From Methylobacterium sp. PvR107 (GTDB lineage Bacteria; Pseudomonadota; Alphaproteobacteria; Rhizobiales; Beijerinckiaceae), in contig NZ_JAFIBW010000001.1 of the NCBI RefSeq assembly GCF_017833295.1, positions 2,232,001-2,296,000 on the forward strand: a stretch of DNA of 64,000 nucleotides, written 5' to 3'. The notes beneath the pieces are model-generated. The model was not told where the DNA came from, ran no database searches, and was given only the letters and a program-made list of their open reading frames with translations. Shown here one piece after another: positions 1,903 to 18,295 of the stretch. Made by a program: the position numbers and the translations under genes. Each line of letters opens with the position of its first letter. Within the stretch, counting starts at the first letter, position 1.

Positions 1903-2288
1903 CTTTCGAAGTCCGAAAGCAGGCTTCAGCACGGACCGATACAACCTCGCTCAGGGCACGCAATAGCTTGAGATTTGTCAATCCACCCCGCTAATTCCGC
2001 CCTAAACTTCTGTCGAGAGTTGATGATTTAGGCCTCGACCACCTTATGGCACTGCTCGATCACAATTCTTGCCGCTGAGGGGATCGCGTCGGTCATCGGA
2101 CCGGCCGGACTGAGCGCCTCCGGCCTGTCGTGCGCAGGCCCGCCTTCCTGCCATCGGCGAGAGGAGACCCGCCAACGGCACGATCGCGGCCGTGGCGCCT
2201 CAAACCTGCGACTGCAGCGCAGCCGCTCCCGGGGGCGACGTGCGACGTCCCTATCAAGGATCGATGTCGATCGCCGTTGGAGACATTT
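1903..2288. other. Intergenic region, no gene seen
   Basis: This 386-base gap starts with a small inverted repeat (CTTTCG...CGAAAG, about 1903-1919) directly after the preceding stop codon. It has no T-run, so it would be a weak terminator at best. The stretch 1960-2080 is AT-richer than its surroundings and probably holds the promoter of the sugar transferase gene. Open frames here extend the downstream gene or run antisense to it and lack their own support. Confidence 0.4.
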
Positions 2289-3821
2289 ATGGCGAGCCTG
2301 CAGGCCGAAACGACATTCCCGGGGCCCGGACTTGCGGGCGCGGCCCTTCCAGGAGCTGGGCTGGGCGGCCGTACGCCCGAGGGTCTGACGGCCGCCGCCG
2401 CCAAAGCGCGGAATCCGAGCCTCCGCCTCCTGTCGAAGGACCTTTTCGTCATTCTGGCAGCCATCGACCTCCTCCTGGTCAGTGGAAGTGCCTTTCTCGG
2501 CGCGATTGGGTACCAGTGGGCGCTGGCGGGTCAGCTGCGCGACATCGAGATCTATATCCTCGTGTCGCTCGGCCTCGCGGCCGCAACCGTCGTGGCAATG
2601 GTCCTCGACGGGGGCTACAGCGTCGAGCAGCAGGGCGACGAGGGCAAGCTCACACGCAAGGCCTTCTTCAGCTTTAACAGCGCTTTCTCCGTCCTCGTCT
2701 GCCTTCTGTTCCTGACCCACTTCACCGATTTCTACTCGCGCGGCAGCCTGGTCACGCAATATGCTGCCGGCTGCGGCGGCCTGCTCCTCGGACGGGCCGC
2801 GGCCGCGCGGCTGATCGAGGCCGCCGTCCGAACCGGCTACCTGGAGGCACAGCGAATCGGCCTGATCGGCACCGCCCAGTCGATCGCCGCCTTCAGGATC
2901 AAACAGCCGGACCGGATCGCCGTCCGGTTCACGGCCTTCGAGCTGCCGGATTGGGCCGTCTGCCCCTCAGGCGTCGCAGATGAGGATGAACTGCGCGGCA
3001 TCGTCGCGAACCGGATCTCCGCCCTGCGCGGGGCCGCCGTCGAGGAAGTGGTGATCCTCCTGCCGGAACAGGCGCGCGAGCTCGTCCATCACATCGTGCG
3101 CGGCTGCACGCATCTGCCGGTCGGACTCAATCTCGTCCTCGATCAGGAACTCTTCGATCCGCAAACGATCGAAGTCCGGCGGTTCGGCTGGAACAGCGCG
3201 GTCAAGCTCTGTCGACCGCCGCTTTCCGCCCTGGATCAGGTGGCGAAGCGCGTGTTCGACATCGTCACCGCCCTCGCCGGCATCGTGACCCTCACGCCGC
3301 TGATGATCCTCGTAGCCGTGGCGATCAAGCTGGACACCAAAGGTCCGGTGTTCTTCCGGCAGAAGCGTCACGGGTATAATCAGCGGCCGTTCCGGATCAC
3401 CAAGTTCCGCACCATGAATACCCTGGACGATGGCCCGGTCATCCGTCAGGCCACGCTCAATGACAGTCGCATCACCAAGGTGGGCGCCATCCTGCGTCGG
3501 ACGAACCTCGACGAGTTGCCGCAATTGTTCGACGTGCTGCGCGGAGACATGTCGCTCGTGGGGCCTCGTCCGCACGCCCTGGCGCACGACTGGGAGTACG
3601 AGAGCAAGATCCCGGCCTATGCGCGCCGCCATAACATCAAGCCGGGTCTCACAGGATGGGCCCAGATCCACGGGCTTCGCGGTGAGACGGACACCGACGA
3701 CAAGATGCGCGCGCGCGTCGAGCACGATCTATACTACATCGATCATTGGTCGTTACTTCTCGATGTCCGTATCATCCTGACGACCGTCTTCTCGTCGCGG
3801 GCCTACCGGAATGCGCGCTAG
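2289..3821 (+). CDS. Undecaprenyl-phosphate hexose-1-phosphate transferase (WcaJ/ExoY-like priming transferase)
   Basis: Predicted inner-membrane enzyme that begins exopolysaccharide repeat-unit assembly by moving a sugar phosphate from a UDP-sugar to undecaprenyl phosphate. The 510-residue form has four N-terminal membrane segments, a soluble CoA-binding-like middle region, and a C-terminal bacterial sugar transferase domain (about 319-505). That domain shows the signatures KRVFDIV, GPVFFRQKR, FRITKFRTM, the catalytic pair D408-E409 in NLDELPQL, and SLVGPRPH. ATG 2289 is preferred over an in-frame start at 2130 because a TTGGAGA ribosome site precedes it and the extra 53 residues look non-coding. 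It is the only priming transferase in the window and fits the nearby export genes. Glucose or galactose specificity cannot be read from the sequence. Confidence 0.9.
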   Translation: MASLQAETTFPGPGLAGAALPGAGLGGRTPEGLTAAAAKARNPSLRLLSKDLFVILAAIDLLLVSGSAFLGAIGYQWALAGQLRDIEIYILVSLGLAAATVVAMVLDGGYSVEQQGDEGKLTRKAFFSFNSAFSVLVCLLFLTHFTDFYSRGSLVTQYAAGCGGLLLGRAAAARLIEAAVRTGYLEAQRIGLIGTAQSIAAFRIKQPDRIAVRFTAFELPDWAVCPSGVADEDELRGIVANRISALRGAAVEEVVILLPEQARELVHHIVRGCTHLPVGLNLVLDQELFDPQTIEVRRFGWNSAVKLCRPPLSALDQVAKRVFDIVTALAGIVTLTPLMILVAVAIKLDTKGPVFFRQKRHGYNQRPFRITKFRTMNTLDDGPVIRQATLNDSRITKVGAILRRTNLDELPQLFDVLRGDMSLVGPRPHALAHDWEYESKIPAYARRHNIKPGLTGWAQIHGLRGETDTDDKMRARVEHDLYYIDHWSLLLDVRIILTTVFSSRAYRNAR

Positions 3822-4769: not shown

Positions 4770-5210
4770 TCAGATCGGCGCGCCCGACGCGCTACTCCGC
4801 AATGTCGGTTTGAAAACGAAATATCCGTCGAGGATAAATTTGGTTGTATACCCACAGATCAGCACCAAAGTACCTGTGACGTAATAAAGCCCGCACTCGC
4901 CGTATTTGTAATATACCAAGCCCTGCGACGTGAGGTACAGGCCGGTCATGAGCACGCTGGTCCCGAGATAGAGGGCCATGACCCAGATCTCCTGCGCCGC
5001 ACCGGACGAGGTGTGATAGAAGATGTAGTTCCTGTCGAGCAGGTACTTCGCGCCGAACCCGGCCCCCGTTCCGGCGATCAGAGCCGCATAGATGGCCCCG
5101 GCGCCCGGCACCGCCCGGAGCATGCAGAATTGCATCAGCCAGTTGATCGCGATCGAGAGCAGCGCGAACCCCGCGTAGCGCAGCATCAGGGACATGCGAT
5201 CGGGGGGCAT
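4770..5210 (-). CDS. GtrA-family small membrane protein
   Basis: A 146-residue protein with four membrane segments in the GtrA pattern (about residues 10-30, 37-57, 77-97 and 107-130), ending with the family-typical YTTKFILDGYFVFK. GtrA proteins are thought to help flip or position polyprenyl-linked sugars. ATG 5210 is chosen because AAAGGA lies 7 bases upstream; the longer in-frame start at 5315 adds 35 non-family residues. It is the last gene of the six-gene minus-strand operon containing dprE1/dprE2-like genes. In Mycobacterium a GtrA protein (Rv3789) also sits beside dprE1-dprE2, so a role in moving the lipid-linked arabinose donor is a reasonable inference. Confidence 0.85.
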   Translation of the reverse strand: MPPDRMSLMLRYAGFALLSIAINWLMQFCMLRAVPGAGAIYAALIAGTGAGFGAKYLLDRNYIFYHTSSGAAQEIWVMALYLGTSVLMTGLYLTSQGLVYYKYGECGLYYVTGTLVLICGYTTKFILDGYFVFKPTLRSSASGAPI

Positions 5211-5311
5211 CTGCATTTCCTTTCTGGCTTTCCAAAATGCGCCGCGCGTTCGAGCGCCGCGGGCGCTTACAGTGAGATCCGGCTCAAGGGCGAGACCGGC
5301 CGGATGCCCGA

Positions 5312-6637
5312 TCAAGGGTAGGAGCGGGCATCTTCAGCGCTTCGCGGGCAGCGGCCTTGGCCGACGCGGGCGGTCAGGCGACGCGCCTGCTGCATTCGAA
5401 AAGCCCAGGCGTCGAACCGTTTCTGCCAGGGGCGCTCCACGAAGTGGTACGTCCCGGTTGCGACGCCGACGACGGCGGCGATGTAACAGAGGGCAACGAG
5501 ATCACCCGCCCAGAGTGGGCCGACAGCCAGCACGTCGACGGGCCTCCCTGCGACGTCCATGCCGATGCGCAACTTCCGATGCAGAATCTGTTCGAGGACT
5601 CGCGATCCGCCATTGAGCCCGGTGAGAATCACGAAATGAACCAGGTAGATCGAGTAGGAGATCTTCCCGAGTTGCTGGAAGATCCCCGTGCAGAGCACGC
5701 GCGAGACCTGGCCTTCTTCGAAGGCAAAGACAATGATGATGCCGGCAAACAGCAAGGGAAGCACGATCACCAGTTCGTGCAGCCACGCGAACTCGAAGGC
5801 GAGACCGATCAGCGCGAGCGCCACGATCTCGAGATAGGCCCAGGGCAGGCGCACACGGCTACGGATCTGACGGAAGGCGCCGTATGCGGCGACGCCGAGG
5901 AAGAAATTGCAAACGCAGACCGGAAAGGCGGCCCGCAGCCACGCGGCGCCCTGCACCTGCAGGAGGAAGGCCGCGAGCGCACCGGCCATCAGCGCGATAG
6001 CCAGAGCCGCAAGGCTCAGGCGGCCGTAGACCCGGAAGCAGATCCAACCGAACAGCAGATAGGTGAAAAACTCGGCGCTGATACTCCAGCTCGGGACATT
6101 CCAGGTGGGCATCGAGAAGGTGCCCAGGCCGTGAAGCAGGAACGTGTTCAGGACCAGCGCGTGCAATCCGGTCTCGCCGACGAAGGCACCTTCACCGGCA
6201 CGCAGATCGGCGTAGCGCAGCGCCGACCATTTGGCGACCTCGTAGGCGACGAGGAGGCTCAGCGTGAACGCGTGAAGGGGCCAGAGGCGACCGACCCGCC
6301 GGACGATGAAGGCCGCCAACGAGATCCGGTCACGGAGCGCGCTGGCATAGGCGTGCGCGAGCACGAAGCCGCTGAGCACGAAGAAGAATTCGACGAAATA
6401 GCCCCCGTTTCGGACAAGGGATACGTCGTAGAACGTGCCCAGGACGCCAAGGTGATACAGGCAGACCACGAGTGCGGCCGTGCCTCTCCAGCCGTCCAGG
6501 GCCGCAAACCGGAGGTCGTCAACCGCGTCGACACGTTGCTCCGGACGGGACGCGGTGACGGCGTCCTGTGCGCCTGGCTGGCTTGCGGCTGGCTCTCGCC
6601 GGCTGGCGCCTGAGCCGTTCGACCATGGCCGCCTCAC
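5312..6637 (-). CDS. Acyltransferase-3 (OafA-like) membrane acyltransferase
   Basis: Predicted integral-membrane O-acyltransferase of 441 residues with about ten membrane segments. It starts the family domain with LDGWRGTAAL (about 46-55) and the key His62 in CLYHLG, followed by FFVLSGFVLAH. Such enzymes put acetyl or other acyl groups on surface glycans. The GTG start at 6637 overlaps the TGA of the upstream glycosyltransferase gene (GTGA), with GAGG about 8 bases upstream; the longer open frame to 6916 lies antisense-like within that gene and is not coding. The overlap suggests coupled translation. Inferred substrate: the glycan made or arabinosylated by this operon. Confidence 0.88.
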   Translation of the reverse strand: MRRPWSNGSGASRREPAASQPGAQDAVTASRPEQRVDAVDDLRFAALDGWRGTAALVVCLYHLGVLGTFYDVSLVRNGGYFVEFFFVLSGFVLAHAYASALRDRISLAAFIVRRVGRLWPLHAFTLSLLVAYEVAKWSALRYADLRAGEGAFVGETGLHALVLNTFLLHGLGTFSMPTWNVPSWSISAEFFTYLLFGWICFRVYGRLSLAALAIALMAGALAAFLLQVQGAAWLRAAFPVCVCNFFLGVAAYGAFRQIRSRVRLPWAYLEIVALALIGLAFEFAWLHELVIVLPLLFAGIIIVFAFEEGQVSRVLCTGIFQQLGKISYSIYLVHFVILTGLNGGSRVLEQILHRKLRIGMDVAGRPVDVLAVGPLWAGDLVALCYIAAVVGVATGTYHFVERPWQKRFDAWAFRMQQARRLTARVGQGRCPRSAEDARSYP

Positions 6638-7989
6638 GCCCGATGCCTCAGATCGCCGGGCGCGGCTGGGCGGGCGGGTCCGCTCTCGCCCAGCCGAACG
6701 AGGCCGCCATAGGCCCCGATGAGCAGCACGATCACGAAGTGTCGAACGAGTCCCTGCGTCAGCACCATCGGGATGAGGAGCACGCCGCAGAGAGCGAGGA
6801 ACGAGAGCGCGCCGGGGCGGCGCAGCTCGGTCCGGCCGGCGGCGAACAGGCCGACGAGCCCCAGGGCGACCAACACCGCGTAGGCTGCACGATCGACGCC
6901 GGCGGACACCAAGCACCCGTAGCGGCCATCATCCAGGCAGGCGTCGCCGGACAATAGACCCACGACGCGCTCGCCCAGGCGCTTGAGGGCGCTAGCCGGG
7001 TCCATGCGGATCTCGTCGAGGGCGATCGCCTTGAAGATCCGACGCTTGTTCTCGTCATGCAGCCACTGCTCGTAGCGGTTATCGGGCACCACGCGCGGCT
7101 TGGGATAGGCGACCCGGTCTCCGGCGGCGTACCGGCGCTCCATCTCGGCGAACAGCAGTTCGTCGGCGACCCCGCGGGGATGGCTGTTCAGGTACGGATT
7201 GTTGTTGCGGGCGAGATTCTCCTCGGCGGTCGTGGCGAACAGCACCAGGCCGGTGTGCAGGGTGTTCTGGACGACGAAATAGGGCCCGGCGACGGCCAGG
7301 AAGGCGGCGACGAACATCCAGCGACGCCGGAGATCGAGGATGGCGAGCACCGACAGGTACGCGGCGCAGAGCGCGAAGACGGCGTGCGTGAGGCAGGTCA
7401 GTCCGGCCAGGACACCGAGTGCCGCGTAGCCCAGCGGCCGCGCCGGATCAGGCCTGGCGGAATGGAACAGGCGCCCCCGCACGAGGGTGTGACACGCGAG
7501 GCCGACCAGAAGGATCGCCAGGTTTTCCGGCCGGATCTGGAAATAGGTTGTGGTCCCTACCAGGAAGCAGGCCGGCACGACGAGCGAGAGGATCCGCAAC
7601 CGCAGATCGTCGATGCTCCGCGTGAAGGCGGCAAAGCCCGAGAAGACCAACCCGACATTGACCAGCCGCAGCCCGGTCACGCCGAGGCCGGTCGCGGCTT
7701 CGAGGCCGCCCATCAGGGCCGGGTAGAGCGGTGGCCAGATGCCGCCGCCATAGGCGGAAGCGATGAGGTCCGGACTCAATTCGCCCCGCCAGATCCGGGC
7801 GAAGATCATCGTCCGGCGCAGATGCTCGGTCTCGTCCGAGTAGGTCACCCCGCTCGACAGGATCCCGTCCCGTGCGAGGAGCGCGAGGGCGGCCGAGAAG
7901 AGCAGCCCGAGCAGGACCAAGTCCGTCTCGCGCCATCCGCGCCCGGCGCGGGCCATTCCGGGGGCCGGAAGCGTCGACGAGGCGCCCAT
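6634..7989 (-). CDS. GT-C fold membrane glycosyltransferase (candidate arabinosyltransferase)
   Basis: A 451-residue polytopic protein with about ten hydrophobic segments. After the first segment an exported loop carries an acidic D52-E53 pair (TYSDETEHL), the hallmark position of GT-C enzymes that use polyprenyl-phosphate sugars in the periplasm. A large hydrophilic loop (about 255-330) interrupts the membrane segments. Its ATG overlaps the stop of the DprE2-like gene by one base (TGATG). Standing directly behind genes for a predicted polyprenyl-phosphoryl arabinose pathway, it is the best candidate for the enzyme that uses that donor. The family link is by topology and motif, not by strong similarity to known arabinosyltransferases such as AftA or Emb. 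Confidence 0.75.
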   Translation of the reverse strand: MGASSTLPAPGMARAGRGWRETDLVLLGLLFSAALALLARDGILSSGVTYSDETEHLRRTMIFARIWRGELSPDLIASAYGGGIWPPLYPALMGGLEAATGLGVTGLRLVNVGLVFSGFAAFTRSIDDLRLRILSLVVPACFLVGTTTYFQIRPENLAILLVGLACHTLVRGRLFHSARPDPARPLGYAALGVLAGLTCLTHAVFALCAAYLSVLAILDLRRRWMFVAAFLAVAGPYFVVQNTLHTGLVLFATTAEENLARNNNPYLNSHPRGVADELLFAEMERRYAAGDRVAYPKPRVVPDNRYEQWLHDENKRRIFKAIALDEIRMDPASALKRLGERVVGLLSGDACLDDGRYGCLVSAGVDRAAYAVLVALGLVGLFAAGRTELRRPGALSFLALCGVLLIPMVLTQGLVRHFVIVLLIGAYGGLVRLGESGPARPAAPGDLRHRA

Positions 7990-8732
7990 CAGAACTTCAG
8001 CCGCATGAAGAGGGGTTCGGGCAGCAGCCGGATCGGCAGCATGATCCAGCGCCAGCGGCCGAGGGTGTAGATCACCGATCGCCGACCGAGATGGGCGCGG
8101 ACGATCTCCTGGGCGACCTGCGTCGGCGAGGCCGTGAGCACCGCCGGCAGCTTCATTCCGCTCGTCATCCGGGTATCGACGAAGCCCGGCTTCACGGTCA
8201 GCACGTGGATGCCGCGCGCCCGCAGCCGGGCGCGCAAGCCCGACAGGAATGCGCTGAACCCGGCCTTGGCCGAGCCGTACAGGTAGTTGGAGGCGCGCCC
8301 GCGATCCCCGGCGACGGAGCTGACGCCGATGATCGTGCCCGATCCCCGTCCCAGCATCCGGTTGGCCAGGGCCGAGAGGATGAGCGCCGGTGCCACGTAA
8401 TTCGTCGTCATCACGGCCTCGGCGAGCGCCGCGTCGCTCTCCGACCGCTCCTGCTCGCCCAGCAGCCCCGCCACCGAGATCACGGTCCCGGGCACAACGG
8501 GCAGCGCGTCGAGAAACCGCGCGCGGCTGTCTGCGTCCAAGAGATCGAGCGCGATGGATCGCGCGCTCACGCCGTAGCGGTTCTGAAGATCGAGGAGGTC
8601 GGCTTCGAGGCGGTCGGGCTGGCGCGCGGCCAGGATCAGGGCCGCGCCGCGCTTGGCGTATTCGTGCGCCAGGGCGAGTCCGATATCGGACGTCGCGCCG
8701 ACGATCAGGACCGGGGACAGGTCCGCGCTCAT
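7989..8732 (-). CDS. dprE2: DprE2-like SDR reductase (decaprenylphosphoryl-2-keto-ribose reductase type)
   Basis: A 247-residue short-chain dehydrogenase with the nucleotide-binding motif GATSDIG (12-18), D62, N111, catalytic S139, Y152 and K156 (YGSAK), and a C-terminal extension typical of the DprE2 branch. In mycobacteria DprE2 uses NADH to reduce the 2-keto intermediate made by DprE1, completing the 2'-epimerisation of decaprenylphosphoryl ribose to arabinose. ATG 8732 has GGGAG 7 bases upstream; the open frame extends to 8954 but into the dprE1-like gene. The assignment rests on the adjacent dprE1-like gene and the fold; an unrelated SDR role is less likely in this context. Confidence 0.82.
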   Translation of the reverse strand: MSADLSPVLIVGATSDIGLALAHEYAKRGAALILAARQPDRLEADLLDLQNRYGVSARSIALDLLDADSRARFLDALPVVPGTVISVAGLLGEQERSESDAALAEAVMTTNYVAPALILSALANRMLGRGSGTIIGVSSVAGDRGRASNYLYGSAKAGFSAFLSGLRARLRARGIHVLTVKPGFVDTRMTSGMKLPAVLTASPTQVAQEIVRAHLGRRSVIYTLGRWRWIMLPIRLLPEPLFMRLKF

Positions 8733-8799
8733 GCCGATGCTCCCGGATGCTGGCGTTGAAGCCCGGTCCTGAGCGGGGCGCGGTCGGCGATCATCGGTG

Positions 8800-10122
8800 T
8801 CATAGCCCGAGCCTCTCTGACTGAACGGATCGAAACCGCCGCCGCGGGTCGTAGCGGTCGCGCGTGCGGGAGAATTCATCGAGGCGCGGGTAGCCGTCGC
8901 GCAGGAGCCCGGCCCCGCCGCGGGCATCCTTGGCCAGGTAGAGGCGCCCGCCATGGGCCGCCACGACGTCGTCGAGTTCGGTTAGCAAACTGAAGTTGCC
9001 GGCCGTCGCCTGGAAATCCAGCGCCAGGGTGTAGCCCCGGAACGGGAACGAGAGCGGCCCACGCGCCTCCTCCCCGCACAGCTTCAGCACCGCCAGGAAC
9101 GAGCCGGTGCCGCGGGCGGCGATCATCGTGAGCAATTCGCGCAGAGCCTCGGCGCAGGAGGCCAGAGGCAGCACGCATTGGTGCTGCACGAAGCCCTGCC
9201 GCCCGTAGATCCGGTTCCAGCGCAGGAGCGCGTCGAGCGGGTAGAAGAACGTCTGGTACGAGACCAGGGCGCGGCCCGTCTTCGCGCGCCGGTAGTAGAC
9301 CGCATTGAGCGCGCCCATGCTGTAGCGGTTCAGGGCGAAGCTCGGGGGCGAGACCGGGACCGTCCGGCTCCGGATGGACGCCGTGCCGTAGGGGCGGCCG
9401 CCGCGGTCCGGCGGCAGGTCGCCCAGGGTGGCATGCTCGCCCCGGTAGACGACGCCGCGGCCAAGGGCGGGGCCGCGGGCGAGGCAGTCGACCCACGCGA
9501 CCGAGTAGGTTGCCTCGGAGGCGTCCTCCAGCGCCTGCAGCGTCTGCGACAGATCCTGGGTCCGCGTCGTGTGCTGCACGACGAGGTCGGTCTCCACCGG
9601 CCGGAGCCGGAAGGTGGCGCGCAGGATCACGCCGGTGAGGCCCATGCCGCCTTGCGTCGCAGCGAAGAGATCCGGATTCTCGTTGTCGCTGCAGCGCACC
9701 ACCGAGCCGTCGGCCAAAGCGAGGTCGATGGAGATCACGTGACGGCCGAAGGTCCCGTCGAGGTGATGATTCTTGCCGTGAACGTCGCTGGCGATGGCGC
9801 CGCCCACGGTAACGAAGCGCGTGCCTGGCGTGACCCAGGGGAACCAGCCCCGCGGCAGGAACACCTCGATCAGCTCGTCCAGCGTGGTGCCGGCCTCGCA
9901 GGTGACGACGCCGGAGCTCGGATCGAAGGAGGCGATGCGGTTCAACCGCGTGACCACCACGGTCGCGGCGCGGTTGAGCGCGGCGTCGCCGTAGGACCGG
10001 CCTGCGCCGCGGGCAATCAGGGTCGGGCGCGCGCCAATCGCGTCCGTCACCTGTTCGGTGTCCCGAGGACGCAGGACGGCGCAGTCGACGCGCGGGTAGT
10101 TGCCCCAGCCGGACAGCATCAT
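8800..10122 (-). CDS. dprE1: DprE1-like FAD-dependent oxidase (decaprenylphosphoryl ribose 2'-oxidase type)
   Basis: A 440-residue VAO-type flavoprotein. The FAD-binding part shows RGAGRSYGDAA (38-48) and VGGAIASDVHGKNHH (106-120), the latter nearly as in mycobacterial DprE1. The C-terminal substrate domain has SFPFRGYTLALDF (358-370) and YLAKDAR (395-401), where K398 matches the catalytic Lys418 of Mycobacterium tuberculosis DprE1. Alignment of this segment puts Ala367 at the position of Cys387, the residue attacked by benzothiazinones. With the next gene it would convert polyprenylphosphoryl ribose to the arabinose epimer. It lies 55 bases after the HAD-UbiA gene and 67 before dprE2, in the same operon. 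Confidence 0.88.
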   Translation of the reverse strand: MMLSGWGNYPRVDCAVLRPRDTEQVTDAIGARPTLIARGAGRSYGDAALNRAATVVVTRLNRIASFDPSSGVVTCEAGTTLDELIEVFLPRGWFPWVTPGTRFVTVGGAIASDVHGKNHHLDGTFGRHVISIDLALADGSVVRCSDNENPDLFAATQGGMGLTGVILRATFRLRPVETDLVVQHTTRTQDLSQTLQALEDASEATYSVAWVDCLARGPALGRGVVYRGEHATLGDLPPDRGGRPYGTASIRSRTVPVSPPSFALNRYSMGALNAVYYRRAKTGRALVSYQTFFYPLDALLRWNRIYGRQGFVQHQCVLPLASCAEALRELLTMIAARGTGSFLAVLKLCGEEARGPLSFPFRGYTLALDFQATAGNFSLLTELDDVVAAHGGRLYLAKDARGGAGLLRDGYPRLDEFSRTRDRYDPRRRFRSVQSERLGL

Positions 10123-10177
10123 CGCAAGCGTCCCTGACCTGCTACGGGCTCGGTCGTCGCACGGATAGGCATGGTGC

Positions 10178-11692
10178 TCAGATGCTCGCCGCGATGATCA
10201 CCGCGCAGGCGAGGCCCGTCACCAAGCTGACCCTGTCCTTCAGGGCGAACACGATCGGGTCGTCGTCCATCTCGCCCCGGCGCGTCTTCAGGATCATCCG
10301 GCTCACCCAGAACAGGAGCGCGAGACAGATCAGCCACATGCGCTCGGGGTGGCGGTACAGCGCCGAGACGGCGTCGCTGTTGAGGTAGAGGGCCATGACC
10401 AGGGCGGTGAGGTAACCGCTCGCCGCGGCCATCGATTCCAGGGACGGCAGATCATCCAGCTTGTAGCCGCGGCCCGCCGGGTCGCCCTTGCCGGCCTGCA
10501 CGCGGTCGACGAGTTCCGCGCAGCGCTTCACGAGGGCGAGGCACAGGAACAGGAAGATCGACAGCGCCTGGAGCCAATGCGAGAGCGTCAGTCCGACCGC
10601 GGCCGCGCCGCCGACCAGGCGGCAGGCGTAGAGGACCGCCAGGGCGACGACGTCCGCGACCATCTTCCGCTTGAGATACAGGGAGTAGACCGTCGTCAGG
10701 GTGAAGTAGCCGCCGAGGACCAGCAGGAATTCCGGCGGCAGCGCCGCCGCCATCAGGACGGATGCGGACAGGAGCGCCGGGATCATGGCGGCCCCGTGGA
10801 CGAGGGGGACGCGCCCGGAGGCGAACGGGCGACGGCATTTCCGGGGGTGCGCCCGATCCGACCGCAGATCGAGGAGGTCGTTCAGGACATAAACGGCGGA
10901 GGCACAGAAGCTGAAGCTCCAGAACGCCAGCACGCAGAGCATCAGCGTGGGCCATCCGGCATGGGCGGCCAGAGCGGGCGCGAAGACGAGGATGTTCTTG
11001 AGCCACTGGTGCGGGCGCAGGGCGCGCAGGTAATCGCGCCACGGGGTCGTCCCCGCGTCGAGGGACACGGCGTCCGGGCTGAGCATCTTCAGCTTGCGGA
11101 ACAGCCGATCGGTCCCCCCGGCCATCAGCGCCTGCCGGCAGCGGCCCCAGACGTGGAGATCGACGCTCGAGCCGCCGATGTAGTCGAAGCGCCGCTCGCC
11201 GAAGCGGCGGCACAGGGCATCGGCCTTGGCGCGACCCGAGAGGTTCACGCCTCCCGAGGAACCGAGCACGCCGTCGAACAGCCCGACCCGGGCACTCATG
11301 GCCTCGACGAGGCGGATGTCGGACGCGGAAGCGAGATAAATCTGCCGGCCCGCGGCCTTCTCCGCGCGGATCCGCGCGACAACGGCTTCGTTCAGAGGAA
11401 TGCCCCCGATATCGAGCCGCAACTCGTCGACGAGGCGTGCCTTGAGGGCACCTTTGCCGCTGCGCAGGCTCAGGAGCGCGGAGGCCGCCCGCAGGGGTCG
11501 GCTCGCCGCAAGGGCGAGGAAGGATTCGACGAGCAGGTCCGAGTGGATCAGCGTGCCGTCGAGATCGACCACGAGGGGGATCTCGGTCGGGGCGACGCCA
11601 GAGAAGGCCGCGCGATCGGCAGCCGCAACCGGGCCGCTCGGAAGCTCGATGATCGCATCGACGTCGTCGAGCAGTGAGGGCAAACTACTCAC
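10178..11692 (-). CDS. HAD-UbiA fusion: predicted polyprenyl-phosphate phosphoribosyltransferase with phosphatase domain
   Basis: A 504-residue two-domain protein. Residues 35-200 form a HAD hydrolase: motif I VVDLDGTL (D43, D45), motif II ASAS, and motif IV DYIGGSSVD (D170, D178). Residues 218-504 form a UbiA prenyltransferase with NDLLDLRSD (N271, D272, D275, D279) and a second acidic region around ADVVALAVLY. The UbiA half resembles the enzyme that joins phosphoribosyl pyrophosphate to decaprenyl phosphate (Rv3806c, Azorhizobium NoeC type). The HAD half could remove the 5'-phosphate, which mycobacteria do with a separate enzyme. GTG 11692 with GGAGA 10 bases upstream is preferred; the frame stays open to 11944 but overlaps the divergent gene. 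First gene of the operon. Confidence 0.82.
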   Translation of the reverse strand: MSSLPSLLDDVDAIIELPSGPVAAADRAAFSGVAPTEIPLVVDLDGTLIHSDLLVESFLALAASRPLRAASALLSLRSGKGALKARLVDELRLDIGGIPLNEAVVARIRAEKAAGRQIYLASASDIRLVEAMSARVGLFDGVLGSSGGVNLSGRAKADALCRRFGERRFDYIGGSSVDLHVWGRCRQALMAGGTDRLFRKLKMLSPDAVSLDAGTTPWRDYLRALRPHQWLKNILVFAPALAAHAGWPTLMLCVLAFWSFSFCASAVYVLNDLLDLRSDRAHPRKCRRPFASGRVPLVHGAAMIPALLSASVLMAAALPPEFLLVLGGYFTLTTVYSLYLKRKMVADVVALAVLYACRLVGGAAAVGLTLSHWLQALSIFLFLCLALVKRCAELVDRVQAGKGDPAGRGYKLDDLPSLESMAAASGYLTALVMALYLNSDAVSALYRHPERMWLICLALLFWVSRMILKTRRGEMDDDPIVFALKDRVSLVTGLACAVIIAASI

Positions 11693-11932
11693 GTTGCCGG
11701 ATCTCCACGCTACGATGCTGGCAAGAAGATGAAAAAGCGGCCTCTCGACTGCTTTCAACCATCTCTCTTCGGTCACTGAATAGCTGGGCTTCGGCGCCGC
11801 CACATGACTTTTGTCAACACGCTGCCGCACTGCACAGCCTAACTTCGAAACGTGCACTTCCGAGCCGCGGAATGTTCGCGCCCAGCGGCGTAAAGCGGTG
11901 TTCCACGAGCGAGCGCGCCCAGAGAACCCCTG

Positions 11933-14320
11933 ATGGCCATGCACGTAGAGCCGGCTGAACTCTCGGCCCGGCAGTTCAACCTGCTCGAACTGTCACGTAT
12001 CCTTCGGCGGCACTGGCGAGTTCTCGCGCTGGCCTTGATCATCTGCACGGGCGCCGGTGCCTGCTATGCGCTGATGGCTGCGCCGGTCTACCAATCCACC
12101 GCGCGGATGCTCATCGACACGCGGCGGGCGCAGCTGTTCTCGCCGCAGCAATCGGTCGTCTCAAGCGACACCTTCGACGCCGCCTCGGTGGAGAGCCAAG
12201 TCGAAGTCATCCGCTCCGAGAACCTGGCGCGATCGGTGATCCGCGACCTCAAGCTCCTCGACGATCCCGACTTCATGCCGAAATCCACGGGTCTCGGCAG
12301 CATGATCACGGCGCGAATCGCCCGTCTGCTCGGCAACGAATCGCGTCCCACCTCGGAGGATCGCCTGCGCGAAGCCTTGAGCCGCTTCGGGAACAACCTG
12401 AAGATCAACCGCCTCGGCATCACCTACGTCATCGAGATCAGCTTCTCCGCGCGGACGCCGCAGCTGGCGGCGCGCATCGCCAACGGCGTGGCGGCCGGGT
12501 ACATCGCGGGCGAGCTCGACGCCAAGCGCGAGACGACGCGGCGTGCCACCGTCTGGCTTCAGGATCGCATCGCGGAACTTCGCGAGCAGACCTTCGCGGC
12601 GGATCGGGCGGTCCAGTCGTTCAAGGCGGACAACAATCTCGTCACGATCGGGCGCGGCCTGATCAGCGATCAGCAGCTTGCCGAACTCAGCACGCAGCTC
12701 ACCACCGCGCGCGGTCTGACCGCCGAGACGCATGTGCGGCTCGAATGGGCGCAACGGGCGCTCAAGGACGGGATGCCCGACGCCACCACGATCGACAGCT
12801 TGAAGAGCGATGTGCTGGGCCGCCTGCGGCAGCAGATCGTCGACCTCACGGCCCGCGAGCAGGATTGGTCCCGGCGCTTCGGCCGCGACAACTCCGCCTC
12901 CGAGAGCCTGCGCAACTCGCTCAAGCAGGCCCAGCGCGCCTTCGAGGACGAGCTGCGGCGGCTCGCCGAGGTCTATCGCGGCGAGTTTGAGGTGGCGAAG
13001 GCGCGCGAGGAGGCGATCCAGACCAATCTGGGCCACATGCTGAAGGTGTCGGCCGACACGGACCTCAAGGCGGTCGGTTTGCGGGAGCTGGAGAGCTCGG
13101 CCCAGAGCTACAAGGGCCTCTACGACAGCATGCTGACGAAATTCATGGAGGCCAGCCAGCAGGCGCTGCTGCCGACCACGGACGCCCGGATCATCACGGC
13201 TGCCTTTCCTCCCTCCGGCAAATCCGAGCCGCGCACCGTGATCGTCCTGGCCGTGTCCGGCGTGCTCGGCCTGATGGCAGGTCTCGGCGTCGCCTTCCTG
13301 CGGGAGGCCACGGACCGGGTGATCCGCCGGCCGGATCAGATCGAGGCCGCTACCGGGGCCGAGTGCCTGGGCCTCCTGACCGAAATCCCGGGCGGAAAGA
13401 GCCCGCGCCTGCCCGCGGTCCCCTGCACGGACGAGCGCCAGATCCGCTGCAGCACGCTGATCGAGCGCTACTCGGTGATCGAGCCGACCTCGCTGTTCAC
13501 CGAGACGCTGCGCTCGATCCGGGTCGCCATCGACGTCGAATCCGGCGACCAGGCACAGATCATCGGCATAACTTCCACGCTGCCCGGCGAGGGCAAGAGC
13601 ACGATCGCGCTGAACCTCGCGCGGCTGATCGCCCATGGCGGGCACCGCGTGCTGCTGATCGACGGCGATCTGCGCCGCCGGGCGCTCACCCTCGGCGTCA
13701 GCGAGGCTGGCGCCCCGGCCCTGGTCGAGGTGCTCCGCGGCGAGGTGCCCGTCGCGGATGTGCTCTGGCAGTGCCCCGACACCGGGATGCATTTCCTTCC
13801 GGTCGGCGCCTACGAGGGCGGTCGACACATGGCCGAGCTGATCCCGGCCTCGGGCTTGGCGCAGGTGCTCGCCTGGACGCGCGAGGCGTTCGACTACGTC
13901 CTGATCGACCTTCCGCCTCTCGTGCCGGTGGTCGACGTGCGCGCGGCGAACCGGCTGATCGACCGGTTCCTCCTGGTCGCGGAATGGGGGCAGACGACAC
14001 AGGATGTTGTCCGGGCCGAACTCGCCGCGAACCGTGTCATCCGCGACAAGCTCCTGGGTGTCGTTCTCAACCGCATCGATCCCCGCTTCCTCAAGCAGAT
14101 CGATGCGAATCGCGGTAGCCGATACGGCGCCTACCTGCAGCGTTCCGAGCCTGAGCTGGCGGCGCAGCCTGTTCCGACTTGGCGTAACGCGATCCCGCGG
14201 ATGCTCGCCTCGCTGCGCCGCGGCCGCCCGGCGCCGCGGCGTCGCGAGCAACGCGGCGTTGCCGGACATGTCCCGCCCGCCCAGACCAATCCCACCCGGC
14301 ACGGCGGCGAAGCCTCATGA
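11933..14320 (+). CDS. Wzc/ExoP-type polysaccharide co-polymerase and tyrosine autokinase
   Basis: A 795-residue inner-membrane protein that would control exopolysaccharide chain length and export. It has a Wzz domain with membrane segments at about 29-49 and 435-456 flanking a long coiled-coil periplasmic part. A cytoplasmic BY-kinase domain follows: Walker A TLPGEGKST (549-557), Walker A' LLIDGDLRR (D577, D579) and Walker B YVLIDLPP (D659). The C-terminal tail has only Y731 and Y734 rather than a tyrosine cluster and is instead Arg/Pro rich. The start ATG at 11933 has only a weak AGAGAA site; ATG 11939 is an alternative. The next gene overlaps it (ATGA). It is the first gene of the export operon and diverges from the arabinose-donor operon. 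Confidence 0.93.
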   Translation: MAMHVEPAELSARQFNLLELSRILRRHWRVLALALIICTGAGACYALMAAPVYQSTARMLIDTRRAQLFSPQQSVVSSDTFDAASVESQVEVIRSENLARSVIRDLKLLDDPDFMPKSTGLGSMITARIARLLGNESRPTSEDRLREALSRFGNNLKINRLGITYVIEISFSARTPQLAARIANGVAAGYIAGELDAKRETTRRATVWLQDRIAELREQTFAADRAVQSFKADNNLVTIGRGLISDQQLAELSTQLTTARGLTAETHVRLEWAQRALKDGMPDATTIDSLKSDVLGRLRQQIVDLTAREQDWSRRFGRDNSASESLRNSLKQAQRAFEDELRRLAEVYRGEFEVAKAREEAIQTNLGHMLKVSADTDLKAVGLRELESSAQSYKGLYDSMLTKFMEASQQALLPTTDARIITAAFPPSGKSEPRTVIVLAVSGVLGLMAGLGVAFLREATDRVIRRPDQIEAATGAECLGLLTEIPGGKSPRLPAVPCTDERQIRCSTLIERYSVIEPTSLFTETLRSIRVAIDVESGDQAQIIGITSTLPGEGKSTIALNLARLIAHGGHRVLLIDGDLRRRALTLGVSEAGAPALVEVLRGEVPVADVLWQCPDTGMHFLPVGAYEGGRHMAELIPASGLAQVLAWTREAFDYVLIDLPPLVPVVDVRAANRLIDRFLLVAEWGQTTQDVVRAELAANRVIRDKLLGVVLNRIDPRFLKQIDANRGSRYGAYLQRSEPELAAQPVPTWRNAIPRMLASLRRGRPAPRRREQRGVAGHVPPAQTNPTRHGGEAS

Positions 14321-15492
14321 TCCCGTCACCCGTCTCTCCGAGTCCGACGGTCAGCCCGTACGGCGGCCGGTCGTCCGATGCGGCGCGGCTTGACGCTTTC
14401 AAGGGTGTCTTCATCGCGCTCATCGTGGCCGGGCACAACCATACCTTCGAGGCCGTGGCCGGGGAGGCGCGGGGCGGTCTCTACCTTGTCCACGTGGCGA
14501 TGTTCCTGTTGCTGCCGTTCCTCCGGCCGCGGGGCGAATGGAGCCGGCTCGGCTGGGCCGACGGCTTGGTCCGTTACGGCTGGCCCATGGTGGTCTTCTG
14601 CACGCTTTACGCGGGCCTGTTCGCCCTCTTCAGCGGCCGAAGCCCGGGCGAGGCCGTCCTGGGCGTCCCCTACGCCGCCTTCGCGATGAGCGTACCGGTT
14701 TTTGAGCGGGTCACCGGCCTGCAGATCCTCTGGTTCCTGCCGGCGCTGATCGGCCTGCGCTTCACCCTGAAGCTTCTCGGCGCCGCGGCGATGCCGTCCC
14801 TGCGCCTGCTGCTCGTCCTGGCGTTCGCGGCGCATCTGTGTGTCGGGCTGCTGCCTGCGGCCTGGCTTCAGGTGACGCCGCTCGGATGGCCGATCGTCGC
14901 CTATATGCTCTTCCCCGGTCTCGTCGCGCATGCGCTGCAGAGCGGCGGGTTCCGAATCCCCCTCCGGCAGGTCGGGCCGGCGCTGCTCGTCGCGGCCCTC
15001 CTTGCCGTTCTCTACCGCCATGCGGGACCCGTCTTCGGCGCATCACCCTCAGCGCCGCTGTTCTCGCTGGGCAAGCTGGAAGTCCCCTCGATCGCCGAGC
15101 CCGTCCGGCTGCTTGCGGCGGATGCCGCTCAGCTGATCGTCCTGTTCTCGGGCCTGACCGTGTGCGGGCTCGCTGCGACGCAAGTCATCTTCGCGGATCT
15201 CGGGCGGCACTCACTCGAGATCTATCTGTTCCACCAGCCGATCTACATTGGGCTGCTCACCGTGAGCCGGAAGCTCGGCATTGCCTCTGGCGATATCGGC
15301 ATGGGGCTGGTGCTGTTCGCACTCACCCTAGCGCTCGCTTTCGCAATGGCCCGCCTCCTGGCCGAATTCCCGCGGTTGCGGCGCCTGCTGTTTCCGCAGG
15401 GCGCCCCGGACCTGCGGCGCCTGTCAGCGCTGCGGATCGGCACGGCCGTGCCGATCCGCGCCCGCGCGTCGGACAGGCCGGCCGGGCGATGA
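14317..15492 (+). CDS. Acyltransferase-3 family membrane protein
   Basis: A 391-residue protein with about ten membrane segments and the family opening LDAFKG (26-31) followed by His40 and His42 in VAGHNHTF. It probably transfers acetyl, succinyl or another acyl group to the exopolysaccharide or its lipid-linked unit. Its ATG overlaps the stop of the kinase gene by four bases, and its own stop overlaps a possible start of the next gene, so the genes are translationally coupled. It shares the family of the protein encoded at 5312-6637, but the two are clearly not recent duplicates. The acyl donor and acceptor are unknown. Confidence 0.87.
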   Translation: MIPSPVSPSPTVSPYGGRSSDAARLDAFKGVFIALIVAGHNHTFEAVAGEARGGLYLVHVAMFLLLPFLRPRGEWSRLGWADGLVRYGWPMVVFCTLYAGLFALFSGRSPGEAVLGVPYAAFAMSVPVFERVTGLQILWFLPALIGLRFTLKLLGAAAMPSLRLLLVLAFAAHLCVGLLPAAWLQVTPLGWPIVAYMLFPGLVAHALQSGGFRIPLRQVGPALLVAALLAVLYRHAGPVFGASPSAPLFSLGKLEVPSIAEPVRLLAADAAQLIVLFSGLTVCGLAATQVIFADLGRHSLEIYLFHQPIYIGLLTVSRKLGIASGDIGMGLVLFALTLALAFAMARLLAEFPRLRRLLFPQGAPDLRRLSALRIGTAVPIRARASDRPAGR

Positions 15493-15551
15493 GAGCGACG
15501 ATGCCCGGAATGATCGTGGCGGACGCCGCACCCCAGACGAGGACAGCAACC

Positions 15552-17027
15552 ATGCGTGAACGCAGCGCGAGATGGCTCGGTCTGACGGTTGTGCTCGCGA
15601 CCATGGTGGTCTCCGGGCAGAGCTTGGCCGACCCAGCGACCGCGCCGACCCGGCCGGCCTCCAGCGCGTCGGCGGCGCACCGGATGGAGCCCGGAGACGT
15701 CCTGGAGATCAACGTCGTCGGCATGTCGGACCTGAAACAGCGCGTTGTGGTTGGGCTCGACGGCGACGTCCAGCTTCATCTGGCGGGACCCGTCACGGCG
15801 GCGGGCCTGACCCTGCAGGAGCTGCGCGGGCAGATCTGCACGGCGCTGTCGCGGAAGGTGCTCAAGCAGCGCACGCTCGACGGACGGGACACGGTGCAGA
15901 CGATCGAGCCCGACGACGTGACTGTCACGATCGCGGAGTATCGCCCGATCTACATAAGCGGTGACGTGGCGCGTCCCGGCGAGATCGCGTTCCGTCCAGG
16001 CATCCTGGTGAGCCAGGCCATCACCCTGGCCGGCGGGTACGACATCATGCGGTTCCGGCTCAGCAATCCGTTCCTCGATACCGCCGACATGAAGAGCGAT
16101 TACGACACGCTCTGGATGGACTTGGTGCGCGAGCAGAGCCGCATCGCGCGCCTGGAGGCTGAGCTGAAGGGGCAGGCCGATCTGGGCGGTTTCGACGTCC
16201 GCGGCACCCCGCTGCGTCCCGCAGCCGTGCAGCAGATCATCCGCCTCGAGGCGGAGCAGATGAAGGTCCGCAACGCCGACTACCAGAAGGAGCGCGACTT
16301 CTTCGAGCGCGCCATCGTGCAGTCCGACCACAACCTGACGGTTCTGACGGAGCAGCAGAAGAACGAGAAGGAGGGCGCCGACCTCGACGCCTCCGATTAC
16401 GAGCGAATCCGCGAGCTGTTCCAGCGCGGAGCGGTGCCGATCACCCGGCTGACCGATGCAAGGCGGTCCATGCTGCTCTCCTCCACCCGCGCGCTCCAGA
16501 CGCAGAATCAGATCGAGCAGGTGAAGAAGGATCGCGAGGACGCCCGGCGCAACCTCCAGAGGACGTCCGACAAGCGCCAGATGGACCTGACGCAGGATCT
16601 CCAGAACTCGGTCTCCAAGATTGCCGCGTTGCGCAACAAGCTGGAGGCCGTCGGGGACAAGCTGGTCTATACCGGCCTCGTCAAGTCGCAGCTCGTCCGC
16701 GGCAAGGGCGCGGAGCCCGATCTCAAGATCTCGCGGCGCAGTGCGACGGGGGGGCGGGTGCGCCGCCCGGCCCGGGACGATACCGAACTGCTGCCCGGCG
16801 ACGTGCTGGAGGTGTCGCTGGAAGCCGAGCTGGTCCCGCCGCTCCCCCCTCAGACGAACTTCTCCAATGACAAGCCGACTTCGCAGGCCGATCAGCCCGC
16901 GGGGAATGTCGAGCAGAAGGACGGCACGCGCGGCGCCACCGTCGCGGCCAACGAGTCGGGCCGGCCACCGGTTCGGGCCACCCCAGGTAAGCCGCCGGGC
17001 GAGCGTGGCGCCGGGGCCGTCCGGTGA
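15552..17027 (+). CDS. ExoF-like outer-membrane polysaccharide export protein (OPX)
   Basis: Predicted periplasmic or outer-membrane component of the export channel, 491 residues. A signal peptide (1-26, ending SGQSLA) has no lipobox Cys, unlike Wza. A Poly_export domain starts at MEPGDVLEINVVG (45-57), followed by an SLBB-like segment (YISGDVARPGEIAFRPG, 134-150). A long coiled coil (about 185-400) and a second short LLPGDVLEVSLE motif near the C-terminus match the ExoF layout of Rhizobium. ATG 15552 has GAGGA 8 bases upstream and gives a clean signal peptide; ATG 15489, overlapping the previous stop, would add 21 residues. A Pro/Asn/Gln-rich tail ends the protein. Confidence 0.87.
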   Translation: MRERSARWLGLTVVLATMVVSGQSLADPATAPTRPASSASAAHRMEPGDVLEINVVGMSDLKQRVVVGLDGDVQLHLAGPVTAAGLTLQELRGQICTALSRKVLKQRTLDGRDTVQTIEPDDVTVTIAEYRPIYISGDVARPGEIAFRPGILVSQAITLAGGYDIMRFRLSNPFLDTADMKSDYDTLWMDLVREQSRIARLEAELKGQADLGGFDVRGTPLRPAAVQQIIRLEAEQMKVRNADYQKERDFFERAIVQSDHNLTVLTEQQKNEKEGADLDASDYERIRELFQRGAVPITRLTDARRSMLLSSTRALQTQNQIEQVKKDREDARRNLQRTSDKRQMDLTQDLQNSVSKIAALRNKLEAVGDKLVYTGLVKSQLVRGKGAEPDLKISRRSATGGRVRRPARDDTELLPGDVLEVSLEAELVPPLPPQTNFSNDKPTSQADQPAGNVEQKDGTRGATVAANESGRPPVRATPGKPPGERGAGAVR

Positions 17028-18295
17028 CGGCACCGTCCCTGATGGAGCGAGCCGTGGCGGCCGGCCTAGTGCTGGCGCTGGCCGGGCTCTTCAGCGGGCT
17101 TACGGCCAACACGCCGCTGGGCAGCCTGAAGCCGTTCGACATCCTGATCATGTCGATCACGGTGCCCTGCCTCGCGAGCAAGAGCCTGGCGCACTTCAAG
17201 ATCAGCACGGGCCTGCTCCTGATGATCGTCTTCTATCTTGTCTGCACGGTGCCGAGCTGCCTGGAGAACGACTTCCTCTACGGCCTGCGTCGGGCGATCC
17301 AGGTCATGATCCTCGTGTCGTTCGGCGTCGTGCTGCTGAATGTGAACCCCGCCGCTCTCACGCGCCGGCACTACGTCTTTGCCCTCGCAATCATGGCCTG
17401 CATCGTCGCGGTCAACGTCGCGTGGCACGTGGCGAACGGCTATCTGACCGATTGGAAGCGGCTCGGGGACCCGAAGTCGCTGTTCATCTTCCTGCCGGCC
17501 TGCGTCGGCGTCGGGATCGTGCTCAAGGTCCTGCCGCGCAACGCGCTCACGGCCGCGATCTGGGCGCTCCTGTGCGTGCTCATCCTGATGTCGGGAGAGC
17601 GCAAGGCGCTTCCGGCCTTCTTCCTGATCAGTCTGGCCGTCTACCTCGACCTGAACAGCCTGCGCGGCTTCGCGCTGGCGGTCTGCGCCGGCCTCGTCGT
17701 CGTCATCGCCGGCGATGTCCTGCTCGACGGCTACGTCTTCCGCCGCATCGACAGCATCTTCGCGGGTTCGGATGCGCGCAATGATCCGCTGTACATTCTC
17801 CAGGGCGGTATCCCCGCTTCCTTGAGCGATGCCCAGCGGAAGCTCGGCATCCAGGTCGCGACCCAGCTGTTCAACGACAATCCGATCTTCGGCTCGGGGA
17901 TGGAATCGACCGCGAACTACGCCCGGAGCCATTTCGCGAACTATCCGAAGTTTCTGACCGGCGTCGCGCATAATGAATTCTGGAGAGTACTTGCCGAGCA
18001 CGGCATCTTCGGCATGACCTTCATGCTGATACCGATGCTGAGAACACTCTACCTGACGACGATGGACAGCATCACCCTGTACCGCGCGAACGGGCAGACC
18101 GCTTACCCGCGTTGCATGCTCATCATCCTGATCCCGATCGCGGCCTACATGTGGTCCGAAGGATCGGGCGTCGAGATGTTCGCGCTGGTCATGCTCGTCG
18201 CGCTCCTGCCCGACCTCATGCCGGGGATCGCCGCGCGGGCTCAGGCGCGCACCCGGCCGAAACCCCATCGCGCGCTCGTCGCCGTGCCCGCTTGA
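17024..18295 (+). CDS. O-antigen ligase/Wzy-like polysaccharide polymerase
   Basis: A 423-residue membrane protein with about eleven hydrophobic segments and a large periplasmic loop (about 240-320). That loop ends with HNEFWRVLAEHGIFG (from H316), the signature shared by Wzy polymerases and O-antigen ligases. It would join lipid-linked repeat units in the periplasm. The GTG start overlaps the preceding TGA (GTGA). In this operon, between the outer-membrane export gene and UDP-glucose dehydrogenase, a polymerase role (like ExoQ) is more likely than lipid A ligation. Confidence 0.85.
   Translation: MTAPSLMERAVAAGLVLALAGLFSGLTANTPLGSLKPFDILIMSITVPCLASKSLAHFKISTGLLLMIVFYLVCTVPSCLENDFLYGLRRAIQVMILVSFGVVLLNVNPAALTRRHYVFALAIMACIVAVNVAWHVANGYLTDWKRLGDPKSLFIFLPACVGVGIVLKVLPRNALTAAIWALLCVLILMSGERKALPAFFLISLAVYLDLNSLRGFALAVCAGLVVVIAGDVLLDGYVFRRIDSIFAGSDARNDPLYILQGGIPASLSDAQRKLGIQVATQLFNDNPIFGSGMESTANYARSHFANYPKFLTGVAHNEFWRVLAEHGIFGMTFMLIPMLRTLYLTTMDSITLYRANGQTAYPRCMLIILIPIAAYMWSEGSGVEMFALVMLVALLPDLMPGIAARAQARTRPKPHRALVAVPA

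Follow-up and report, generated by a model that had tools for sequence, protein, structure and literature searches.

A predicted polyprenyl-phosphate arabinose operon with a candidate GT-C transferase beside an exopolysaccharide cluster of Methylobacterium sp. PvR107

The 64,000-nucleotide stretch of Methylobacterium sp. PvR107 DNA analysed here (contig NZ_JAFIBW010000001.1, positions 2,232,001 to 2,296,000; hereafter the window) stems from a genome of one contig of 6.36 Mb and harbors, from position 11692 to position 4770, six minus-strand open reading frames (ORFs). Their products, in order, are a HAD-UbiA fusion protein, DprE1-like and DprE2-like oxidoreductases, a GT-C transferase, an acyltransferase and a GtrA protein, and the operon lies next to a divergent operon for exopolysaccharide (EPS) biosynthesis. 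We propose that it probably represents a pentofuranose donor-and-transfer module for the surrounding EPS. An earlier note, made by a model from the sequence alone, had named six minus-strand genes of these types between 4770 and 11692, and all six ORFs were found:

10178..11692, minus strand: HAD phosphatase and UbiA phosphoribosyltransferase fusion (GTG start; PRK08238, 588 bits)
8800..10122, minus strand: DprE1-like FAD oxidase (NF053785, 464 bits; alignment with DprE1 of the PDB)
7989..8732, minus strand: DprE2-like short-chain reductase (NF053786, 189 bits; Y-x-x-x-K motif)
6634..7989, minus strand: GT-C fold transferase of a small family, proposed arabinofuranosyltransferase (predicted model)
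5312..6637, minus strand: acyltransferase family 3, accessory (PF01757, Acyl_transf_3, 84 bits)
4770..5216, minus strand: GtrA-type small membrane protein, proposed lipid-linked pentose flippase (NF037976, 77 bits)

Neighboring genes of the operon overlap or are separated by gaps of at most approximately 95 bases, the ATG of the GT-C gene overlapping the stop codon of the DprE2-like gene and the GTG of the acyltransferase gene overlapping that of the GT-C gene. The GTG start of the HAD-UbiA gene at 11692 is supported by indels directly upstream between the window and two Methylobacterium relatives; the remaining starts were picked by reading the sequence. All six frames are open, which rules out a pseudogene cassette in the window. 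Among 87 DprE1-centred loci listed (the best 80 of one scan plus 7 of another), DprE2 was present in 81 and a UbiA or HAD-UbiA match in 60, on the same strand and with gene centres within 4 kb, and the grouping is, therefore, not considered to be a product of chance. UbiA or HAD-UbiA, GtrA and DprE2 accompanied DprE1 in 37 of these loci, the others carrying UbiA and DprE2 (21), DprE2 only (18), GtrA and DprE2 (5), UbiA only (2) or none of them (4).

The HAD-UbiA protein passes the PRK08238 model well above its curated cut-off of 351 bits. Its UbiA half is related to the mycobacterial decaprenyl-phosphate phosphoribosyltransferase (DPPR synthase) of solved structure (PDB 8j8j; E value 1e-22). 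The UbiA motifs N-D-x-x-D-x-x-x-D and R-x-x-E (N324, D325, D328, D332, R443 and E446, numbered on P0006, an ORF version starting at 11851) are retained in all 57 long rows of the alignment, a count which, like that of 110 for DprE1 below, includes the protein of the window. According to the available text of Kelly et al. (PMC11127046), the same six residues were mutated in ORF15 of Citrobacter youngae. The aspartates of HAD loop I, D96 (56/57 rows) and D98 (55/57), are both present in the window protein. The earlier note had regarded clustering of the UbiA domain with ubiquinone- or heme-pathway enzymes as a finding that would overturn its reading. In a tree of 28 rows, comprising 25 hand-chosen members of 87 UbiA domain hits and the three other UbiA proteins of this genome, the domain falls among DprE1-linked UbiAs, at a distance from the genome's other three, which are set apart by a branch length of 6.34 (support 99/98); these three form long branches, and their heme-o, 4-hydroxybenzoate and chlorophyll-synthase types were assigned by eye only. 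Assignment as a ubiquinone or heme enzyme was rejected on this tree position.

The DprE1-like protein aligns with mycobacterial DprE1 over its whole length (E=5e-94 against the PDB), and the equivalents of the pocket residues H132, K134, Q334, Q336 and K367 are conserved in 110 of 110 rows, with K418 conserved in 109 and facing one gap. All six of these pocket residues are kept in the window protein. Residues 365 and 367 match the positions of mycobacterial N385 and C387, respectively, the former position being occupied by threonine in 106 and serine in 4 of the 110 rows and the latter by alanine in 103, including the window protein, and threonine in 7. Cys387 of the mycobacterial enzyme is the covalent site of benzothiazinone drugs. 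In the DprE2-like protein, the Y-x-x-x-K motif lies within YLYGSAK, and another short-chain dehydrogenase/reductase (SDR) model, PRK07102, is passed at 313 bits against a cut-off of 267. The GtrA protein exceeds the cut-off of NF037976 (50 bits) and falls below that of PF04138 (21 against 26.1 bits).

Neither Pfam nor NCBIfam has a model that matches the GT-C protein (451 residues) at E<=0.01, yet its predicted structure adopts a GT-C fold, as determined by VIA-align comparison, in which AftA, AftB, EmbB, EmbC and AftD were among the structural matches. The comparison with AftA and Emb suggested in the earlier note was thus carried out and confirmed the fold, with AftA, AftB, EmbB and AftD being recovered. 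By sequence, a PDB search returned two chance-level rows only, and a 13-row profile found no PDB entry at E<=10. When the 13 members were searched against Pfam, the few families hit were weakly matched, each by no more than two members (best E 0.0021). S51, D52 and E53 are invariant in 13/13 members and follow the first long helix (residues 22-40), which agrees with the acidic residue that the GT-C superfamily has in its first extracytoplasmic loop. At least 12 relatives were recovered, the same set twice, by profile search of approximately 5.8 billion proteins with 8000 candidates scored each time; a named one, P0011 of Methylobacterium sp. J-070, is 77% identical. Within 397 genomes sampled from the order the profile matched only the protein itself, together with two partial matches (E 5.4e-4 and 6.3e-4), both in one other family and left out as relatives. 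These genome searches scored up to 4 (397 genomes), 15 (111 genomes) or 11 (146 genomes) first-look candidates per genome, so that some relatives may be missed. The GT-C protein belongs to a small, unnamed family and could represent a new family of glycosyltransferases.

Synthesis of the donor would be initiated by the UbiA part of the HAD-UbiA protein, acting on phosphoribosyl pyrophosphate and polyprenyl phosphate, following which the fused HAD domain would remove the 5'-phosphate. Oxidation of the lipid-linked ribose at C2 by the DprE1-like protein and its reduction at C2 by the DprE2-like protein are then predicted to yield D-arabinose, with C2 inverted. GtrA is presumed to flip the resulting polyprenyl-phosphate D-arabinofuranose to the periplasm, where the GT-C protein may transfer D-arabinofuranose as a side chain onto an EPS of the Wzx/Wzy type, and the acyltransferase, where present, might acylate the arabinose or the EPS. 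We assign these enzyme functions by homology and motif residues, and infer the flipping role of GtrA, the nature of the sugar in the living cell, its acceptor and any acylation. Donor synthesis as outlined in the earlier note is supported by the conserved UbiA and DprE1 residues and the UbiA tree position. In place of its label "DPA-like", polyprenyl-phosphate arabinose is the preferable term, one that does not specify the lipid length. The acyltransferase of the window operon passes PF01757 (cut-off 31 bits). The note's "acylation as a final step" does not hold generally: no match to this acyltransferase was found within 29 kb around the operon of a second Methylobacterium genome (G480), and acylation would, therefore, be an optional step. 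A second acyltransferase of family 3 (14317-15492), unlike that of the arabinose operon, is kept in all three Methylobacterium genomes described below.

The attachment of the pentose to EPS is suggested by the surrounding genes, which in the window comprise the following:

11933..14320, plus strand: Wzc-like chain-length protein, divergent EPS operon (PF02706, PF13614)
14317..15492, plus strand: second acyltransferase family 3, EPS operon (PF01757, 49 bits)
15492..17027 (start approximate), plus strand: Wza-like export protein (PF02563, 57 bits)
17024..18295, plus strand: Wzy/O-antigen-ligase-type polymerase (PF04932, 44 bits)
18360..19691, plus strand: UDP-glucose dehydrogenase (PF03721, PF00984, PF03720)
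2283..3821 (start approximate), plus strand: polyprenyl-phosphate sugar transferase initiating the EPS repeat (PF02397, 228 bits)
9-902: OmpR-type response regulator, a candidate regulator, flanked by the genes for Wzx and the initiating transferase

To the left, the EPS cluster extends beyond the window with an epimerase, three GT4 glycosyltransferases, a GMC oxidoreductase and a Wzx flippase. Matches to the GT-C profile (E<=0.001) occur in three of 111 genus genomes (G000, G480 and G495), and those to the cluster Wzy (E<=1e-20) in the same three, an identity with a chance of 1 in 221,815 if the genomes were independent; as they are related, the co-occurrence is suggestive only. The left half of the EPS cluster is retained in G480 and G495 with 76-98% identity over the main gene segments. 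DprE1 of this kind (E<=1e-60) occurs far more broadly, in 25 of the 111 genomes with one match each, and the PRK08238 model was passed in 102 of the 397 genomes of the order, in some through the UbiA part alone. Donor genes are, therefore, widespread and not new. None of the 87 DprE1-centred loci listed carried a window-type GT-C or acyltransferase gene nearby.

A second line of evidence is provided by GT-C relatives of 50-55% identity in 4 of 146 genomes of a second genus, that of G141, which is probably Mesorhizobium, as the very similar P0014 carries that name. A plasmid search with the Mesorhizobium GT-C relative returned nothing. Within 110 compared loci, which include at least two contigs apparently present twice (L050/L157 and L052/L159), GT-C genes occur in six. 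Relatives of the initiating transferase (36-38% identity) are found in all four second-genus GT-C loci, those of one GT4 of the window's cluster (L216 12921; 44.6-45.6%) in three and those of another (L216 9613; 40-41%) in two, one of them partial. Alongside GT-C these proteins score 313-318 bits (first GT4), 149-630 bits (second GT4) and 259-1021 bits (initiating transferase), whereas the best scores in the 104 loci without GT-C are 59, 50 and 109 bits, respectively. Because initiating and backbone enzymes are common to both genera together with the GT-C protein, the comparison suggests that the glycans made by the two clusters may be alike in part and have an acceptor sugar in common. The link to EPS drawn in the earlier note is strengthened by these EPS-enzyme relatives beside GT-C and by the GT-C/Wzy trio, and is better supported than its author could know; that first reading is partly supported and, in outline, mostly right.

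Several observations weigh against the proposed module, beginning with its acceptor. The co-occurrence of GT-C and Wzy is not independent, as the three Methylobacterium genomes are possibly closely related, and all four GT-C loci outside Methylobacterium come from one genus. In these four loci, close relatives are lacking for the third GT4, Wzc, Wza, Wzy and the GMC oxidoreductase, and Wzx has only a 23% match, in one of them. The score of the third GT4 is higher in a locus that lacks GT-C (65 bits) than in the second-genus GT-C loci (50-57 bits). The two EPS clusters, therefore, share only part of their genes, in a comparison whose loci reach approximately 10 kb to each side and in which four were chosen by GT-C and the others by DprE1. 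It is conceivable, albeit unlikely, that the same donor serves another acceptor, such as lipopolysaccharide, a surface protein, pili or a hopanoid, and that the EPS genes are mere neighbors. Such a role would fit the lack of Wzc, Wza and Wzy relatives in the second genus as well as the varied contexts of the donor genes, with 22 of the 25 genus genomes that carry DprE1 showing neither the window GT-C nor Wzy, and it has precedents in the arabinosylation of Pseudomonas pilin and of Nod factors, as cited in the available text of PMC11127046 and PMC2443382, respectively. It is countered by the manner in which the window GT-C tracks the EPS polymerase within its genus and EPS-type glycosyltransferases in the second.

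The donor itself is also subject to doubt. The DprE1-like and DprE2-like proteins score below the cut-offs of the NCBI equivalogs NF053785 (500 bits) and NF053786 (250 bits), and the former cut-off was reached in none of the 61 genomes searched; it is for these reasons that the names "DprE1-like" and "DprE2-like" are used. HAD motif IV reads GGSSVD in the window protein, with D231 kept and G at the second position, which is D in 36 of the 57 rows, N in 11 and G in 6, and phosphatase activity could, therefore, be altered. The UbiA and DprE1 motif residues are intact, and one HAD motif is changed. That the pentose is ribose or another epimer rather than D-arabinofuranose, the oxidoreductases acting on a different position or substrate, would accord with the subthreshold scores and with the replacement of mycobacterial N385 by T or S and of C387 by A or T in 110/110 rows; the conservation of the other DprE1 pocket residues and the joint presence of DprE1 and DprE2 in 81 of the 87 loci listed render it very improbable.

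For the GT-C protein, protein O-mannosyltransferases and ArnT, rather than arabinosyltransferases, head the fold matches, and a fold does not reveal specificity. Polymerization of a D-arabinan chain in place of the addition of single side-chain residues, to which the EmbB, EmbC and AftD matches might point, appears most improbable for an operon with one GT-C gene whose 451-residue product shows no separate extra domain in its model.

The donor-and-transfer module proposed here resembles known systems. Kelly et al. (2024; PMC11127046), in the text available, describe a three-component scheme, show HAD-UbiA activity and found family GT136, and the overall scheme of donor, flipping and transfer is, therefore, already known; the GT-C transferase and its likely EPS target are new. 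HAD-UbiA, flippase, GT-C and epimerase genes occur together in one operon, as in such three-component systems. The Citrobacter youngae O1/O2 system, as described there, consists of ORF12 (GT136), ORF13 (epimerase), ORF14 (flippase) and ORF15 (HAD-UbiA) and shares with the window a HAD domain N-terminal to UbiA, a flippase, a GT-C protein, an epimerization step and adjoining polysaccharide genes. It differs in that a DprE1/DprE2 pair replaces the single ORF13 epimerase, GtrA replaces the MATE/EmrE-like ORF14, the likely target is EPS rather than O antigen and, comparing by description only, the window GT-C lacks the C-terminal carbohydrate-binding domain of ORF12. The same text reports DprE1/E2 homologs in candidate systems of arabinofuranose-containing glycans and, for Xanthomonas and Bacillus, systems that have more than one candidate epimerase or GT-C, and its main part contains neither "Methylobacterium" nor "acyltransferase".

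The mycobacterial decaprenyl-phosphate arabinose pathway (Rv3806c, Rv3807c, DprE1, DprE2, Rv3789 and AftA/AftB/Emb) is alike in reaction order, in the homology of UbiA, DprE1 and DprE2, and in its small flippase and GT-C transferase. In the window, by contrast, a HAD domain replaces the Rv3807c phosphatase, the oxidoreductases are below the equivalog cut-offs with alanine at the Cys387 position, the lipid is presumably undecaprenyl, and the single GT-C has no sequence match to solved AftA, AftB or Emb chains. For Azorhizobium noeCHOP, the available text of PMC2443382 gives noeC, noeH and noeO as proposed makers of a D-arabinose precursor by mycobacterial similarity; noeCHOP acts on the Nod factor, and the likeness is one of description, not sequence. 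ArnT, the lipid A 4-amino-4-deoxy-arabinose transferase, differs in donor and acceptor, and the window GT-C scores 11.7 bits against the ArnT model (cut-off 567). Among the titles and abstract openings listed for the Methylobacterium exopolysaccharide and arabinose literature, none concerned this operon, and in the accessible part of PMC12502750 arabinose appears only as an inducer or in a vector name.

Two of the second-genus loci, L209 and L211, share the order initiating transferase, HAD-UbiA, short GtrA, ArnE/ArnF-like transporter, extended-SDR epimerase, DprE1, DprE2 and GT-C (gene families tested on L209), with two additional genes between HAD-UbiA and DprE1:

L209 12299-13736 and L211 5718-7155: ArnE/ArnF-like small transporter and GalE-like extended-SDR epimerase

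The transporter has no match elsewhere among the loci compared; the epimerase has a partial copy in L210 and a best score of 44 bits elsewhere. Together with DprE1/E2, a GalE-like epimerase would make inversion at both C2 and C3, and thus lyxofuranose, possible, a sugar found in no solved carbohydrate structure according to the available text of PMC11127046. It is tempting, if rather doubtful, to view the GT-C protein as the founder of a new Rhizobiales family for EPS pentofuranosylation, the donor being altered by epimerase swaps (D-arabinofuranose in Methylobacterium and lyxofuranose in the two Mesorhizobium-type loci).

The operon would tie a mycobacterial-type sugar donor to the EPS of a probably plant-associated bacterium and directs interest to the enzyme of a single small, unnamed GT-C family. 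If correct, this would provide a simple non-mycobacterial system for the study of lipid-linked arabinose together with a candidate new glycosyltransferase family, and the chemical prediction would be D-arabinofuranose in the window EPS and possibly lyxofuranose in that of Mesorhizobium-type relatives.

Among the remaining second-genus loci, L210 carries an IS66 transposase within HAD-UbiA (4845-6629), and L212 (9987-12101) retains a UbiA remnant by a shortened DprE2, with no DprE1, most of HAD-UbiA and DprE1 being missing. One TGA was flagged within the GT-C match in two genomes of this genus. In G495 (L155, L218), frames are broken at a single point in each of DprE1, the acyltransferase and one GT4 and at two points in Wzc, in an otherwise 91-98% identical region, and these breaks are probably assembly indels. 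The left-half order differs in G480, in which the initiating transferase, Wzx and two GT4s are more distant and oppositely oriented. Two further cluster genes are kept in both genomes, namely the GMC-type oxidoreductase inside the EPS cluster (L216 11169-12815; 80% in G480, 92% in G495) and the OmpR-type regulator (96% in G495, 83% in G480).

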